Origin: a virus
Length of the DNA stretch: 21,256 nucleotides
Direction: 5' to 3' (one strand)
Virus record (IMG/VR): IMGVR_UViG_3300025671_000658
Location: 1 to 21,256 of that record
The position numbers and the translations under genes are program-made. Positions within the stretch are counted from its first letter, which is position 1, and every line of letters begins with the position of its first letter. Below are positions 2,698-19,118 of this stretch, one piece after another. The notes under the pieces are model-generated. The model searched no databases. It was given only the letters and a program-made list of their open reading frames with translations, and was not told the DNA's origin.

Positions 2698-3228
2698 CTA
2701 TTTGTCCTTGGGAAAATTTAAGACTGCAAACTCTCCATAAAACTTTTTTGCTGCTCTGTCATATGCTTTAGCAGCATCAATTTCATTGATGTATCTGCCA
2801 AGTTCTATTGCTTTTCTTCTTACTACGATTCTTGCCCGCCATCGATTTCGGGGTTTGTGCCAATAAACCCCTTTGTATTTACTTGTTTTTTTGTTTTTAA
2901 TTTCTTGGCATAACTGTCTATTATGACAATTAGAAGCTTTTGATGCAAGACGTAAATTTTCTAGCTTGTTATTTTGTTTATTTTGATCTATGTGATCAAT
3001 TTCCATAATTCCAGGATCTTGTTGAAAAGCAAGCATCCAAATAATTCTCTGGCAAGACCAACATTCTCCTTTGTATTTAACAAACCAGTATTGCCCATTT
3101 CTAATGCCACCTGCTTTCAATCCTGTACTTTTTCCCTTTTTCCACCTTAAACCTGATGGGCTTGTTTCATCAATTTTAAAAACACTATCCAGCTCTTCAA
3201 AACTAAGTAATGGCTTGGGTTTTGTCAT
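2698..3228 (-). CDS. HNH endonuclease with AP2 DNA-binding domain (free-standing homing type)
   Basis: A 176-residue protein with two recognisable parts. Residues about 45-104 are an HNH nuclease: MEIDHIDQNKQNNKLENLRLAS with His79 as the likely general base, Asn residues that would hold the metal, and a following NCHNR. Residues about 116-173 are an AP2 domain (SKYKGVYWHKPRNRWRA, then DAAKAYDRAAKKFYGEFAVLN), which binds DNA. This HNH-AP2 pairing is common in phage homing endonucleases. It sits between two tail-fibre genes that share repeats, with no sign that either fibre frame is interrupted, so it is an intergenic insertion and not an intein or intron. It is more AT-rich than its neighbours, which fits acquisition. 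A hairpin lies just before its start. Confidence 0.9.
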   Translation of the reverse strand: MTKPKPLLSFEELDSVFKIDETSPSGLRWKKGKSTGLKAGGIRNGQYWFVKYKGECWSCQRIIWMLAFQQDPGIMEIDHIDQNKQNNKLENLRLASKASNCHNRQLCQEIKNKKTSKYKGVYWHKPRNRWRARIVVRRKAIELGRYINEIDAAKAYDRAAKKFYGEFAVLNFPKDK

Positions 3229-8344: not shown

Positions 8345-8692
8345 ATGCACGCCGCTGCTGGATTCTTAGACAGTTTTGTTCAAGACGAACTGGATTGCCG
8401 TTGTCTGGAATTTGATGACTTTGGGGCTCCTCTTGACAATGAAGAAAATGACGTCCCTCTGTATGATATGTACAACCGAGGGTTAACGGCATGTCAGCAA
8501 GGACTGGAAAGGAATCCACTCAATCTCGAGGGGCGACGGCCCGGAACGACGGGCTATATTCCGTCAGTGGAGGAAGCGATGGAAGCGTATCCAGCGTCCA
8601 GTCCACGGCCGAAAAGCTTAGTGCTGCAGCTCGGCGAGCCCAGCGAGGAGATGATCGAGATGTCACGAAAGCGCCGTGGTTTAACCCGGTAG
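8345..8692 (+). CDS. Unknown phage protein overlapping the DUF3310 gene out of frame
   Basis: A 115-residue protein with an acidic first half (FLDSFVQDELDCRCLEFDDFG, then DNEENDVPLYDMYNRGL) and a more basic second half (EEMIEMSRKRRGLTR end). The sequence reads like a real soluble protein, with normal amino-acid use throughout. Its last 202 bases overlap the start of the next gene in another frame. The fold is unknown; the Y-D-M-Y-N-R-G-L and GYIPSVEEAMEAY parts look conserved in style, but no family is recognised. It begins 40 bp from the divergent gene. Confidence 0.6.
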   Translation: MHAAAGFLDSFVQDELDCRCLEFDDFGAPLDNEENDVPLYDMYNRGLTACQQGLERNPLNLEGRRPGTTGYIPSVEEAMEAYPASSPRPKSLVLQLGEPSEEMIEMSRKRRGLTR

Positions 8693-9054
8693 AGCGCGAG
8701 ACACCTTCAGAAGATCGAACAGTTGTTATGGAATGCAAGGACGGTGTGTGCCCTGTACCCTGGGCAGTGGAACCAACACCTGCACCTGTGGAAGAGCACA
8801 AGATTGCACGAGAGTCTTCTCCACTCCTTAAAGAAGATAACGTCAACCATCCGGCTCATTATACGGATGGCGAAATTGAATGTATTGAAGCTATTGAAGC
8901 TGCATTAACCCCAGAAGAATTCCGTGGTTATTGCAAAGGTAATCTAATGAAATATGGATGGCGTGAACGCCACAAGGGCGGAACTGAATCTTTGCGTAAA
9001 GGTCAGTGGTACCTGGATCGCCTGATTAAGTTCGACGAAGCTCAAAAGGGCTGA
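8491..9054 (+). CDS. DUF3310 (SaV-like) phage protein with overprinted N-terminus
   Basis: A 187-residue frame whose C-terminal about 75 residues are a DUF3310 domain: NVNHPAHYTDGEIECIEAIE (116-135), then EEFRGYCKGNLMKYGWRERHKGG and KGQWYLDRLI. This domain is common in phages of many hosts and is thought to relate to nucleotide metabolism, without a proven reaction. The start at 8491 has GAGGG 8 nt upstream and puts residues 1-67 on top of the 3' end of the previous gene in another frame; these residues are rich in Ser, Arg, Gly and Ala and look disordered. An internal ATG at 8728 (residue 80) would avoid the overlap but has only a weak site. Residues 80-95 (MECKDGVCPVPW) hold a Cys pair. The end overlaps convergent nblA by 13 bp. 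Confidence 0.75.
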   Translation: MSARTGKESTQSRGATARNDGLYSVSGGSDGSVSSVQSTAEKLSAAARRAQRGDDRDVTKAPWFNPVERETPSEDRTVVMECKDGVCPVPWAVEPTPAPVEEHKIARESSPLLKEDNVNHPAHYTDGEIECIEAIEAALTPEEFRGYCKGNLMKYGWRERHKGGTESLRKGQWYLDRLIKFDEAQKG

Positions 9055-9359
9055 AGCTCATCTTCATCATCGTCCTCGTCATCGTCTGAAATGCAGACGG
9101 TGGCGAGTTCCAGCAGTTCCAGTTCTGTGGGGATGTCGAAATCTAATTCAATCTCTTCGTCATTGAGCAGTGTTTTGACGGCATGCCATTCCATCAGCCG
9201 TTGATGGTAGAGATTCAACAGTGCGGCATAGAGTTCTTCCCATGTAAGTTCTTGGGCTTGAAGTTCTGCTTTGCGCATTGAGAATTGCAGTTCCAGTGGA
9301 AGCTCAAACTCCCGTGGTTCGACCGAACGCTCCATCTGTCCTGCTGAATCCTTTTGCAT
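9042..9359 (-). CDS. nblA: NblA-like phycobilisome degradation adaptor with acidic C-terminal extension
   Basis: Residues about 17-66 (from ATG 9359) align without gaps to cyanobacterial NblA: F-E-L-x-L-E-x-Q-F-x-x-R-x-x-E-x-Q, then L-T-x-E-E-x-x-x-x-L-x-x-L-Y-x-Q and a closing L-L. NblA binds phycobilisomes and delivers them to the ClpC protease, causing bleaching; viral copies are known in cyanophages such as the Microcystis phage Ma-LMM01. Ordinary NblA is about 60 residues. Here a 40-residue tail follows, with two Leu/Glu segments and a run of Asp/Glu (DDDEDDDEDE). Possible starts are TTG 9380, ATG 9359 and ATG 9335; the last has AGGA closest, and all keep the core. It lies between lysozyme and the convergent DUF3310 gene. 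Host type follows from it: phycobilisome-bearing. Confidence 0.8.
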   Translation of the reverse strand: MQKDSAGQMERSVEPREFELPLELQFSMRKAELQAQELTWEELYAALLNLYHQRLMEWHAVKTLLNDEEIELDFDIPTELELLELATVCISDDDEDDDEDELQPF

Positions 9360-9389
9360 TATTCTAAGACTACTCGTCAAATGCTACAT

Positions 9390-10037
9390 CTAATTGTCAA
9401 AGACGGAGTCGTAATCGTCCACCCAAGGATCTTGGTCGATGCAGAAGTTATTGGCGAATTCTGAAAGGACGTAAGGATTGAGGTTTTCTTCCAGGCGGCG
9501 GATTGCTCTGACCTGGTAAAGTGCTGCAGTGTAGTTGCGGAATGCCGTCAGAAGGATTTCGGTTGAGGACCAGGGATTCGCATCGATTTCCTGGAGGAAC
9601 AGATTAACCTCTTCCCGGCGACGGTCGATGAGGCCACCAACGACGTGATGGTATTCATCAAAGATCCAGCGGCTCATGGAATCAGATGCCGTCTTGAAAT
9701 CTTCTTGTTCGATGGCATCAACAATCTCGCTGTACAAGAAGGGCTCCCAACCAATGGAGTGTACGAATGAGATTAAAGCCTGGCGCATGGAATCATCCAA
9801 GCCCAGATTTAATTTCTGCAATTCAATATCAATGATGCTTACCTCGTGGAACAAGTATTCCAACGCTTTTTCTTTACTACAGCGCTGCCCTTGTTTAACG
9901 GGTGAACCGTCTGGATAAAATTGAGTGCCGAACCCAATGGTATAGGGCTCGGCACCAGTGGCAGGATCTGCGTATGCCTTCTCGTTAAACCCTTCGTATT
10001 TACGAATTAGGTTAATGGCATGCGCAAAATCAGCCAT
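9390..10037 (-). CDS. GH24 (T4-like) lysozyme/endolysin with C-terminal extension
   Basis: A 215-residue muramidase that cleaves peptidoglycan glycan bonds. The catalytic triad of the T4 lysozyme family is visible: Glu15 (RKYEGF), Asp24 (YADPATG) and Thr33 (PYTIGFGT), with normal spacing. SFVHSIGWEPFL (91-102) and the helical part up to ERR-type GGLIDRRREEVNLFL (134-148) complete the fold. Residues about 150-215 are an extra helical and acidic tail (ALYQVRAIRRLEENLNPYVL, ending DYDSVFDN) not found in T4 lysozyme; it could bind wall or a partner. There is no signal peptide or membrane segment, so release needs a holin. It sits between nblA and two small basic genes on the same strand. Confidence 0.9.
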   Translation of the reverse strand: MADFAHAINLIRKYEGFNEKAYADPATGAEPYTIGFGTQFYPDGSPVKQGQRCSKEKALEYLFHEVSIIDIELQKLNLGLDDSMRQALISFVHSIGWEPFLYSEIVDAIEQEDFKTASDSMSRWIFDEYHHVVGGLIDRRREEVNLFLQEIDANPWSSTEILLTAFRNYTAALYQVRAIRRLEENLNPYVLSEFANNFCIDQDPWVDDYDSVFDN

Positions 10038-10546: not shown

Positions 10547-12751
10547 TTACAAATCAAAATAAGAAGGTGCACCTTCGTCCTCCTCATCTTCAAAGTATTG
10601 AAAATAAGTAGATCGCTTTGGTGTATATGTCTCCGCTTGTTTTATATTACTATCCTCATCTTCATCTTCAATCATTGAACTGATTGAACCCATTGCCGCA
10701 AATGGATTTGAAAAATCAGGCATACTAAAACCAAGTAAATTTTTAGCTGTCATATCTGTACTTGAAAAAGCTTTACCGCTTGCAGGTAATAAGTCTTTAT
10801 CTTCTTCTGTGGCATCGGGGAAGAAATCAGTGTAAAAATCTGTTTCAGTTCCCTTGTAACCTGCTTTTTGAAAGATCGAAAACAACTTTGATTGACCTGT
10901 TGAAGAAACCTCTTTCTCATCGGAATCACGTTGAATATATTCAATCCCTAATTTTTCTTGGGTTGGTTTAATCCCTTGTTCGTTTAACTGTCTAATACGT
11001 TCTCGTATTTCAAGAGCAGGATCAGTGCTCAAGATTTTTGTTAAACTTTCTTTTACTGTTTCAGCGGGATCAGTAACTTCATTTACGCCGATTTCTTTTA
11101 AACGTTGTTTTAATTCTTCCGGTAAAGCTTCCAGGTTTAATTTTGCAACTAAGTCTGTTGCTTTTGATTCAGCAGAAACAAAGTCTTTGAAGACAGGGTT
11201 TGAAAGAGAAGATTTTTCCGCTTCTAATGCTTTTGTCAGATCACCTCTAATGAATTCAGCTAAATCAGCTCTTGTATAACTATCCGCTACTGGGTCATAA
11301 TTTTTATCTTTACCAAGAATCTGATAGTGCAATCTCGCAAAATCACTCTTGTCTTCTAGGTTTACACCATATTCATACGCTAGTTGCTTCCAAGTCTTGC
11401 CATCTTTTACGATCGCATCACTATTTCTAGTGTCCCAATTAGCTTGCACACTTTCTCGCTGTTCTTTGTAGAAAGCTTCTTTGGCTAAATGAGTAACGCC
11501 TTCGAGTACTTCTGGGTTCCAATAAAAATCGGGATTAAAGCTTTTGGTTGTCGTTTTAGTTGTTAAATCATCGATGAAATTAGTTGCTTGATGAATGGCA
11601 AGTTGCTTCAATGCGTTTGATGCAAGCTGCGTCTGCAGAACGTTTTGCTCATCTTCTTTAACATCCATGTAGCTGATGAATTCAGACATGGATTTTGAAG
11701 TATTAAAGCGAGGACGCAAGTATTTTTCAATGAAATCTGTGGCAAACTGCTGATCAATCTTATATGTTTTTGTTGTATCCGATGGATCTCGAATTTCTTG
11801 CATTTGCTTGTAACGCTCTGCAAGTGTTTTATCAAACCAATCTTGCCAGTTGTATTCAACTGAAGCGCCAAGTCCAAGACCTTTTTCCAGGCTGGCAGAT
11901 AATCCTTTCTCTAGTTCTTGACCTTTCCCAAAACTTAAGAAGCCTCCAGCGCCAATATCACCGAGGATTGAGTTTTTAATGTCTTCTTTTAAACTGCCGG
12001 AATTTGGTAAACCCATGCTTGTGTACATGGATTTTATTTCTTGTTTTTTTAAGTTCTTGTTGTACTCGTCTAAGGTTTGTTTTAAAACATCAGCAGATAA
12101 AGCTCCAAAGACTTTTTCGCCTTGAACGTCGACATAGTTTTGAGCGGCTAGCTCTGCCAGCGAAGAAGGTTGTTCTTCTGAAGTGCCGAGTAGTGCTTCA
12201 CGTAAAATTTGTTGCTCTTGATATGTAGATGGCCGAAGTTCCTCGGTATAGGTATCAAGTTGTTTTTGTTTACCAGGCAGTCCGCCTGGAGCCCCGACAA
12301 AGGTGTAATCTGAATGGAGATAAGAATCAAGTGTTGGGTATTTTTGAGTTATATCTACATTTGCTACTTTCTTTCCGCCAAAACTTACGTCGCTTGAAGC
12401 TTTATTCCATTCTTCAACTTTGTTCGGAACCAAGCCAGCATAGAACTTGGCATCAAAGTTGGCTAAATCAGCACCTTGTTTAGTTGAGTCCCATGGGGTA
12501 ATATTTACGGCGCCTGTGTAAAAATTTTCAAGTTGCGATATTGTGCTGTCATCAATGTATTGTTGATATGGTGTATTGCTTGATTGAAAATTTCTGTCTA
12601 ACGACTCCAAAAGAGTTTTGTAGTTTGAATTGCCTGTACCAACAGCATTAAAATTTGTTGCTATTGTCTGTGCAATTTGCAATTCTTGCGACGTTGCGTC
12701 GGCAGGAAGGCTGGGAACCAGGTTGTTATTTTGAATGGTAAAACGAATCAT
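10547..12751 (-). CDS. Large unknown phage protein, 734 aa (probable virion protein)
   Basis: A long, mostly alpha-helical, polar protein without membrane spans and with only a few short hydrophobic stretches. The N-terminus (MIRFTIQNNNLVPSLPADAT) is followed by many Gln/Lys/Glu/Thr-rich helices; a Gly-rich loop lies at about 270-300 (DIGAGGFLSFGKGQELEKGL), a helical block near 480-620, and a very acidic end (MIEDEDEDSNIK, then YFQYFEDEEDEGAPSYFDL). No enzyme motif is seen. Length, composition and position near lysis genes fit an internal virion or tail protein; that is inference. Its start overlaps the stop of the upstream HNH gene as ATGA, so it may be translated by coupling. The region is AT-richer than its surroundings. 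Confidence 0.75.
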   Translation of the reverse strand: MIRFTIQNNNLVPSLPADATSQELQIAQTIATNFNAVGTGNSNYKTLLESLDRNFQSSNTPYQQYIDDSTISQLENFYTGAVNITPWDSTKQGADLANFDAKFYAGLVPNKVEEWNKASSDVSFGGKKVANVDITQKYPTLDSYLHSDYTFVGAPGGLPGKQKQLDTYTEELRPSTYQEQQILREALLGTSEEQPSSLAELAAQNYVDVQGEKVFGALSADVLKQTLDEYNKNLKKQEIKSMYTSMGLPNSGSLKEDIKNSILGDIGAGGFLSFGKGQELEKGLSASLEKGLGLGASVEYNWQDWFDKTLAERYKQMQEIRDPSDTTKTYKIDQQFATDFIEKYLRPRFNTSKSMSEFISYMDVKEDEQNVLQTQLASNALKQLAIHQATNFIDDLTTKTTTKSFNPDFYWNPEVLEGVTHLAKEAFYKEQRESVQANWDTRNSDAIVKDGKTWKQLAYEYGVNLEDKSDFARLHYQILGKDKNYDPVADSYTRADLAEFIRGDLTKALEAEKSSLSNPVFKDFVSAESKATDLVAKLNLEALPEELKQRLKEIGVNEVTDPAETVKESLTKILSTDPALEIRERIRQLNEQGIKPTQEKLGIEYIQRDSDEKEVSSTGQSKLFSIFQKAGYKGTETDFYTDFFPDATEEDKDLLPASGKAFSSTDMTAKNLLGFSMPDFSNPFAAMGSISSMIEDEDEDSNIKQAETYTPKRSTYFQYFEDEEDEGAPSYFDL

Positions 12752-13104
12752 GATGCCTTCTTGTGACTCTGCAAGTCAATCAGGTTAAAACTATCTGGAA
12801 TCATCCAGGTTTTTATTCTATCTAAATTTTCTTGTGTAAAAAAATCCTGTTGTTTGTACCAGGTTTCCATGTCGGTGGAAGCTTTGTTTGAGTTACAGCG
12901 GCAACAGGCTGGAATTAAGTTATTCCTATTTGAGCAGCCCGACTTGAAACGTGGTACGATGTGGTCCAAGCTGGTCGCACTTCCGTTGCAGTAGCCACAT
13001 TTATGATCCCAGGCTTGGTATATACTTTCTCTAAATCGTTTCTTTGCAAGTTTTGGCGTTAATTCAACTAGCAGGGCAAGGGGCTCATGCTGGTTGCAAA
13101 ACAT
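12748..13104 (-). CDS. HNH endonuclease (zinc-ribbon type)
   Basis: A 118-residue protein with a compact HNH fold: CGYCN (C36, C39) and CCRCN (C67, C70) form the zinc site, LDHIVPRFKSG (46-56) holds Asp47 and His48, and NRNNLIPAC (59-67) carries the second Asn. This Cys4 HNH type is common in phages, as a homing endonuclease or as a partner of terminase. No terminase is seen nearby, so a homing or accessory role is more likely. Its TGA stop overlaps the ATG of the 734-residue gene by ATGA, which is tighter than a recent insertion usually gives. The leader before its ATG is AT-rich without a clear ribosome site. Confidence 0.88.
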   Translation of the reverse strand: MFCNQHEPLALLVELTPKLAKKRFRESIYQAWDHKCGYCNGSATSLDHIVPRFKSGCSNRNNLIPACCRCNSNKASTDMETWYKQQDFFTQENLDRIKTWMIPDSFNLIDLQSHKKAS

Positions 13105-14002: not shown

Positions 14003-14578
14003 ATGACTAACGATTACGAGTTTGAAAAAGCATATTGGGGTGATTGCTGCAATACGTTCGATGAAGAGCAAAAACATTTTGTCTATGCCAGCTTGATGGG
14101 AGTCAAGCGGACTCACTTCAGTTTTGATGCAGGCAATAAGAGTGTGATGGACATTGGGGCTGGCCCGGTATCAATGCTGCTCAAGACAATTAATCTGACG
14201 AAGGGAAAAGTTGTCGATCCAATTATTTATCCCAGGTGGACACGTGATCGCTACCTGGCGCACAACATCAATGTTCTTGTATCCAGGGGAGAAGATATTG
14301 AAGAAAGTGGATGGGATGAGGTATGGATTTATAACTGCCTGCAACACACCGATGATCCCGGACTAATCATCAAAAATGCATTGAAGGCAGCTAAAGTTCT
14401 GCGTTTATTTGAATGGATTGATATCCCAGCTCACGAAGGACATCCCTGTGAACTGACGCAACAATCACTTGATGAATGGATTGGCGCCAAAGGTAATGTT
14501 GCCAACCTCAATCATTCTGGGTGTTATGGCAAGTGTTATTACGTAGTTCATACCAGCCCTTACGCCAAAGATCGTTAA
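14003..14578 (+). CDS. Class I SAM-dependent methyltransferase
   Basis: A 191-residue protein with a Rossmann-type methyltransferase core: SVMDIGAGPVSMLLK (47-61) is motif I that binds S-adenosylmethionine, VVDP (70-73) is the acidic second strand, and EVWIYNCLQHTDDP (106-119) is the motif IV region, here in the L-Q-H-T form found in small-molecule and sugar methyltransferases rather than DNA ones (no N/D-P-P-Y). AKVLRLFEWID (130-140) continues the sheet. It converges with the glycosyltransferase gene and overlaps its 3' end by 71 bp. Position beside a glycosyltransferase suggests modification of a glycan or protein, which is inference. Confidence 0.78.
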   Translation: MTNDYEFEKAYWGDCCNTFDEEQKHFVYASLMGVKRTHFSFDAGNKSVMDIGAGPVSMLLKTINLTKGKVVDPIIYPRWTRDRYLAHNINVLVSRGEDIEESGWDEVWIYNCLQHTDDPGLIIKNALKAAKVLRLFEWIDIPAHEGHPCELTQQSLDEWIGAKGNVANLNHSGCYGKCYYVVHTSPYAKDR

Positions 14579-15614
14579 GGGTCTGGAAGACACGGTCGTA
14601 CATCTTGCCGCAGGTTTCCAAGCTGTAACGCTGACGTGCAGTGTTGGCGATCTTGCGTCGATCAAGGGTGTCTGCGTTGTGGATCGCATCAACCCAATCC
14701 TGAAGCGTATGACACCTAAAGCCAGTTACGCCATTAATCACGGTCTCCGTGAAGGCGCCATAATCAACGGAAACTAAGGGTGTGCCGCACAGCATGGCTT
14801 CTACGCCACTGCCACCAAACGGTTCGGTAAAGACTGTTGGCATCAATGCAGCCCGTGCATTGCGAAGAAAGTCGGACCTTTCGGTGCCGTGAATGGGACC
14901 GCGATATTCAATGTTGGGGTGGTTCCAGGGCGTTGGATCTCCTTGTCCGTGGAGCACGATTGGCCAGGGGCTGTGGTCTGCAAGTGCTTTGATTGTGTCC
15001 ATTCCCTTTTGGCTGCAGATACGCCCAAGGAATGCCAGGTAATCACCTGCTTTGTATTTAGGTTTCCACTCCGTGATGTCGAAGTAATTAGGAATCACCC
15101 ACTCGTAGTTACGTCCACTGCGGTTTTCTTTGCCCTGGTGGTAGTGCATCCAGGCGTATGACTCGAATATCCTGTAGCTTTTCGGCATCAAGGTTGGATA
15201 ACCAATCCCTGTTTCAACGTGCTGATGATCTGGGAAGTGATCCATCAATACTTGATGAGCGTGGCCAAAGGGATGACAGATGATGTCCTCTGGTTCTAAG
15301 TTGCCCTTCAGGTGGACGATCAGACGGTCCTCAAAGAGACGATGGCCATCGCTACCGATGGTGGCATCATCACCATAGAAATCGGTTGCTTTTCGCTTGT
15401 TGTAGAGGTCGTCAAATTCTGTATCGGAGATAATTGGTATATGTACCGATGCCCCTGCCTCGCTGGTGCCATTGGAATATTCAATTACTTCGTAGCCCTG
15501 TGCTTGCATCATGCGCGGAAAGCGCAATGCTTTGCCAGTAAAAGCACAGTGCGAATATTTAAGTTGTGATTTGGTATGGAAAATACCAATCAAATGAAGA
15601 CGAGGTTTTGCCAT
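14508..15614 (-). CDS. GT4-type glycosyltransferase
   Basis: A 368-residue GT-B glycosyltransferase. The N-terminal domain starts LHLIGIFHTKSQLKYSHCAFTGK, typical of phage GT4 members; the C-terminal nucleotide-sugar domain shows YLAFLGRICSQKGMDTI (192-208), VLHGQGDP (220-227) and the E-x7-E motif TEPFGGSGVE (Glu264, Glu272), then GTPLVSVDYGAFTE (277-290) and GVTGFRC. All parts look intact, so the enzyme should be active. It transfers a sugar from an activated donor to an unknown acceptor: phage fibres, host surface glycans or modified DNA are options. It is the last gene of the tail operon, 9 bp after the beta-rich protein, which favours a virion target. Its 3' end overlaps the methyltransferase gene. 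Confidence 0.88.
   Translation of the reverse strand: MAKPRLHLIGIFHTKSQLKYSHCAFTGKALRFPRMMQAQGYEVIEYSNGTSEAGASVHIPIISDTEFDDLYNKRKATDFYGDDATIGSDGHRLFEDRLIVHLKGNLEPEDIICHPFGHAHQVLMDHFPDHQHVETGIGYPTLMPKSYRIFESYAWMHYHQGKENRSGRNYEWVIPNYFDITEWKPKYKAGDYLAFLGRICSQKGMDTIKALADHSPWPIVLHGQGDPTPWNHPNIEYRGPIHGTERSDFLRNARAALMPTVFTEPFGGSGVEAMLCGTPLVSVDYGAFTETVINGVTGFRCHTLQDWVDAIHNADTLDRRKIANTARQRYSLETCGKMYDRVFQTLNDLWRKGWYELRNNTCHNTQND

Positions 15615-16349: not shown

Positions 16350-19115
<2,766 letters not shown>

Positions 19116-19118
<3 letters not shown>

Follow-up and report, generated by a model that had tools for sequence, protein, structure and literature searches.

An NblA-like protein with an acidic Pro-Phe tail encoded next to lysozyme in the lineage of cyanophage S-EIV1

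NblA is a host adaptor that feeds light-harvesting antennae, the phycobilisomes, to a protease, and the NblAs carried by phages are usually seen as auxiliary, serving to bleach the host. A short reading frame in the viral DNA analysed here (IMG/VR record IMGVR_UViG_3300025671_000658; the whole stretch of 21,256 nucleotides is referred to as the window) raises the question of whether its product is such an adaptor, and of what the long C-terminal extension of this product might do. The initial annotation had placed the gene at 9042-9380 on the minus strand, adjoining lysozyme. An open reading frame of this extent is present, but relatives do not conserve the TTG start at 9380. These start at a conserved M[E/D]RSVEP, residues 5' of this Met are not conserved, and in one locus, L039, an in-frame stop lies immediately 5' of it. 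We therefore assigned the gene to 9042-9335, with a product of 97 aa. The neighbouring gene did prove to be a lysozyme gene, and the local arrangement is as follows.

9042..9335, minus strand: NblA-like coding sequence, 97 aa plus stop, ATG start with AGGA immediately 5', start conserved in relatives (PF04485, E=2.2e-4)
9390..10037, minus strand: lysozyme gene, the neighbour (PF00959, E=8.4e-19)
8491..9054, plus strand: convergent DUF3310 gene (PF11753, E=1.3e-18), overlapping the 3' end of the NblA-like gene by 13 bp

The NblA-like gene lies in a late-type lysis and structural block and, judging from gene order alone, may be expressed late.

The resemblance to NblA is found in the core of the protein.

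9165..9308, minus strand: NblA-like helix-loop-helix core, residues 10-57, ungapped against residues 5-52 of Anabaena NblA (1OJH) and identified with PF04485, hhalign and AlphaFold helices

PF04485 (NblA) was the top Pfam match of the window protein, with residues 11-57 aligned without gaps to positions 1-47 of the 50-position model. The score of 22.1 bits falls below the curated Pfam cut-off of 25 bits. In addition, 21 of 21 relatives matched the model (best E=9.9e-6). When compared with 1OJH, 16 of 48 positions were identical, again without gaps, which bears out the ungapped NblA-like core that had been proposed. 1OJH also ranked first when all sequences in PDB were searched with a profile (E=4.5e-4); HRD1 matches ranking below it were due to the acidic stretch of the protein and were discarded. 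Alignment of the NblA-like profile with five NblAs using hhalign gave an E value of 3.9e-6 and a probability of 87%. With a local NblA profile, only one of 19,077 composition-matched shuffles equalled the score of the window protein, and the resemblance is therefore not due to chance. As to the fold, AlphaFold predicted helices at residues 14-28 and 32-59 of the full protein, giving the expected helix-loop-helix, and the same helices were obtained with the core alone (mean pLDDT 87.6). When PDB was searched with Foldseek, neither the full model nor the isolated core gave a usable match, a result taken as uninformative for a helical hairpin of only 56 residues. A PHROGs search with the protein gave no informative match, and no SSB (PF00436) match was obtained in a Pfam scan; the model is helical and not an OB fold. 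A tblastn search of phages with Anabaena NblA did not return any match. Ma-LMM01 and PaV-LD, which are known to carry nblA, were also missed, and thus the search is insensitive. We consider it very likely that the fold of the phage protein is derived from NblA.

How the gene is distributed was examined in phage and metagenomic collections. Among 50,697 phage records, the sole relative was found in Synechococcus phage S-EIV1. The protein is 65% identical, is encoded in the same gene order, and is annotated as a hypothetical protein. In IMG/VR the relatives numbered at least 222; 80 of these were retrieved, together with a marine set. In a search that began from lysozyme, 78 loci extended far enough downstream, and in all 78 the NblA-like gene came immediately after that for lysozyme. 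In the sample examined, it therefore belongs to the core genes of the S-EIV1 cyanophage lineage, and is not an auxiliary gene of patchy occurrence.

According to published work (PMC4103541), NblA contacts ClpC with a site close to the N terminus, and phycobiliproteins with one close to the C terminus. In the phage family, the two ends have been conserved to very different extents.

9270..9311, minus strand: N-terminal motif, residues 9-22 (EFELPLELQFSMRK), corresponding to the end by which NblA reportedly binds ClpC

Residues 9-22 display 36-53% identity to four NblAs and are 95% conserved within the phage family. The corresponding values are 19-30% and 84% for residues 23-43, and 7-14% and 78% for residues 44-58. 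In this last segment identity to NblA is near background while conservation within the family is high, indicating that the residues are constrained, but not towards NblA. The family has thus diverged from NblA at the end to which phycobiliprotein binding has been ascribed. In Anabaena NblA, we take Leu51 and Lys53 to be the phycobilisome-binding residues. In 108 sequences of the phage family, the equivalent of Leu51 is Leu or Ile, and that of Lys53 is never Lys. Glu49 and Ala52 are invariant, and Trp50 and Lys54 nearly so. The phage protein thus resembles cyanobacterial NblA (PF04485, Anabaena 1OJH) in its ungapped helix-loop-helix core, its LxLExQFSxR-like N-terminal motif and the Leu/Ile at the Leu51 position, and differs from it in the absence of a Lys53 equivalent, in the conserved residues of its own at the cargo end, and in an extension of 40 residues. 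Phycobilisome breakdown by the protein is plausible but conjectural.

The extension and its parts are located as follows.

9045..9164, minus strand: C-terminal extension, residues 58-97, recognized in alignments
9084..9125, minus strand: predicted third helix, residues 71-84, beginning in a conserved PT[DE]xE (AlphaFold, pLDDT about 79 for residues 71-80 and 52 for residues 81-90)
9057..9086, minus strand: acidic run DDDEDDDEDE, residues 84-93, disordered (pLDDT under 50 at residue 86 and beyond)
9045..9050, minus strand: C-terminal Pro-Phe tip, residues 96-97, similar to the tip of SSB

The initial annotation had described a 40-residue acidic tail absent from ordinary NblA. The absence was confirmed in the five NblAs compared, which derive from cyanobacterial plasmids and phages. 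An extension of about 40 residues with a poly-Asp/Glu run is indeed present, but the term acidic tail is too loose, as in the AlphaFold model the extension starts with a linker, continues as a helix and becomes disordered in its acidic end. Among relatives, the acidic run varies in sequence and length, and its charge is kept.

The tip was compared in 113 distinct sequences. Eighty-six end in Pro-Phe, one ends in LQTV, and 26 marine sequences end in (D/N)PF followed by 3-4 further residues (DPFTPA and DPFEPV, for instance). Pro-Phe is thus terminal in 86 of the 87 non-marine distinct sequences. The possibility that this end is forced by the convergent overlap with the DUF3310 gene was considered and rejected. 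Pro-Phe is kept whether the overlap is 13 bp, 4 bp or absent, as in L014, and in the 4-bp class the overlap reaches no further into the tip than the final base of the Phe codon. Furthermore, the sequences with a terminal Pro-Phe make use of all four codons for Pro and of both for Phe. The variety of codons and the retention of Pro-Phe across the overlap classes indicate that the tip is under selection at the protein level. As a separate observation, the variant with LQTV in place of LQPF was found in L227, L231, L235 and L239, and represents a natural loss of the tip.

Viral NblAs are already known from Ma-LMM01, MaMV-DC, PaV-LD and marine phages (PMC9602691). Those of Ma-LMM01, MaMV-DC and PaV-LD are, as the protein described here, phage-borne and match the NblA model; they differ in scoring above the Pfam cut-off and in having no such tail, and the PaV-LD gene is shorter. 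With the predicted NblAs of marine T4-like and T7-like cyanophages (S-SCSM1, S-TIM5 and podoviruses), the family shares the character of a divergent phage NblA. ORF237 of S-SCSM1, accepted as a viral NblA on HHpred evidence (PMC9602691), has 54 aa and is without the extension. Since ORF237 does not have any Pfam match, the family of the S-EIV1 lineage is the better supported of the two as NblA. A comparison published in 2017 lists nblA for PaV-LD, Ma-LMM01 and MIS-PhV1B, and the photosynthetic-gene entry for S-EIV1 is blank (PMC5332604). Our literature search, which had the original description of S-EIV1 outside its scope, found no mention of nblA for this phage, and earlier recognition is possible. 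A widespread lineage carries the NblA-like gene as a core gene, and the gene is unannotated in S-EIV1, the one isolate that the search of phage records returned.

We favour the explanation that the protein is an NblA-derived ClpC adaptor of the phage with a rebuilt cargo end and an acidic Pro-Phe tail, and give this explanation as a whole a probability of roughly 55%. The helix-loop-helix core, presumably a dimer, would retain the surface near the N terminus with which NblA reportedly docks on ClpC of the host Clp protease, and a function as a ClpC adaptor seems probable. The end that grips phycobiliproteins in ordinary NblA would have been rebuilt, with Glu49, Ala52, Trp50 and Lys54 and without Lys53, and a helix and the acidic tail would have been added to it. 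Produced together with the lysis genes, the protein would deliver a host protein to ClpC late in infection. Phycobilisome subunits would be the most likely single cargo, for which we see about even odds, and their breakdown would release amino acids and reduce light capture. The acidic Pro-Phe tail may provide an additional docking site.

Other explanations were weighed against this one. The protein might not be derived from NblA, but be a short helical phage protein of other origin that resembles it by chance, as the Pfam score under the cut-off and the lack of a Foldseek match would allow. Taking into account that independent profile tests concur over the core without gaps, that shuffled sequences reached the score only once, and that the phage lineage infects cyanobacteria, we regard this as highly improbable. 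On the other hand, the protein could be a plain viral NblA that brings about phycobilisome breakdown as in other cyanophages, with the tail as a minor accessory for solubility or for protection from co-degradation. Other viral NblAs exist, some of which are active (PMC9602691), and the published ORF237 of S-SCSM1, with its 54 aa and no Pfam match, is far more divergent. However, members of the family agree with one another, and not with NblA, in the C-terminal part, and the tip hardly varies although the acidic run preceding it does, which is unlike a dispensable tail. We thus find a plain NblA possible but rather doubtful. The adaptor may also have been retargeted, keeping the ClpC-docking half and taking as cargo another host or phage protein instead of the phycobilisome. 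The new invariant and near-invariant residues at the cargo end, the loss of the Lys53 equivalent, and the occurrence of the gene as part of the core and not as a scattered auxiliary are in line with this proposal. Picocyanobacterial hosts do possess phycobilisomes, however, and the loss of Lys53 may simply reflect the phycobilisomes of these hosts; we hold retargeting as a tentative alternative, about as likely as a plain NblA.

A further possibility concerns the tail itself, which might mimic the SSB tip and dock on SSB-interacting replication and repair proteins, so as to recruit or deplete them. The C-terminal tip of SSB (SSB-Ct, DDDIPF) is an interaction hub for replication and repair proteins (PMC5872125). 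It has in common with the phage tail a disordered acidic stretch and a Pro-Phe end, whereas the phage tail sits on a helical adaptor and not on an OB fold. The SSB of S-EIV1 (PF00436, above the cut-off) ends in MTDEPF, and all phage SSBs of the lineage end in Pro-Phe (EVPF, DQPF, NAPF and similar). Four ORFs of at least 25 aa in S-EIV1 end in Pro-Phe, and those annotated among them are only the SSB and the NblA-like protein. In an earlier set of loci, none of 14,489 ORFs outside the NblA-like family ended in an acidic Pro-Phe. The window protein, as nearly all non-marine members, has the acidic run followed by a terminal Pro-Phe, but in the 26 marine relatives the motif is internal, even though marine SSBs end in a free DPF (ETDPF, SEDPF). 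SSB-tip pockets contact the terminal Phe, and the internal Pro-Phe of the marine proteins would lack the free Phe carboxylate. The non-marine sequence ending in LQTV also speaks against mimicry, as does the residue preceding Pro-Phe, which is usually Gln or Leu and not Ile. The similarity to the SSB tip is therefore a lead from sequence that is weakened by the marine versions. Mimicry of the SSB tip is in our view unlikely, and there is perhaps one chance in a handful that the Pro-Phe tip binds an SSB-tip receptor. That the protein is a bifunctional degrader, in which the NblA-type half would dock on host ClpC and an SSB-tip mimic would capture replication and repair proteins to be destroyed or displaced late in infection, is a long shot. 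A covariation of the residue preceding Pro-Phe between SSBs and NblA-like proteins (Asp in marine sequences, others elsewhere) is not claimed, as only two marine SSBs were involved.

If the NblA-derived adaptor with a rebuilt cargo end is real, the repurposing of a host protease adaptor for new cargo by phages becomes testable. It would also represent one more Clp adaptor in cyanobacteria, where, to our knowledge, few are known.

Several additional observations were made. L085 (PAZU01000015.1) is binned as a Euryarchaeota MAG; its gene content is that of an S-EIV1-like cyanophage, and the contig is therefore probably misbinned. On two contigs of the same marine MAG, L186 (1477-1830, in a minus strand frame) and L187 (1264-1611), further NblA-like proteins are encoded. 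They have about 113-115 aa and a long acidic extension at the C terminus but no Pro-Phe tip, and no relative of them was found in the phage collection. The NblA-like gene of L187 adjoins a frame for an HNH-type endonuclease and a 2-oxoglutarate oxygenase-like gene. In the window, an ORF of 922 aa with long collagen-like GATG repeats (16350-19118) probably encodes a tail fibre. Two HNH endonuclease genes (2698-3228 and 12748-13104), one with an AP2 domain, are present among structural-type genes, and a glycosyltransferase group 1 gene (14508-15614) lies inside the structural-type gene block.
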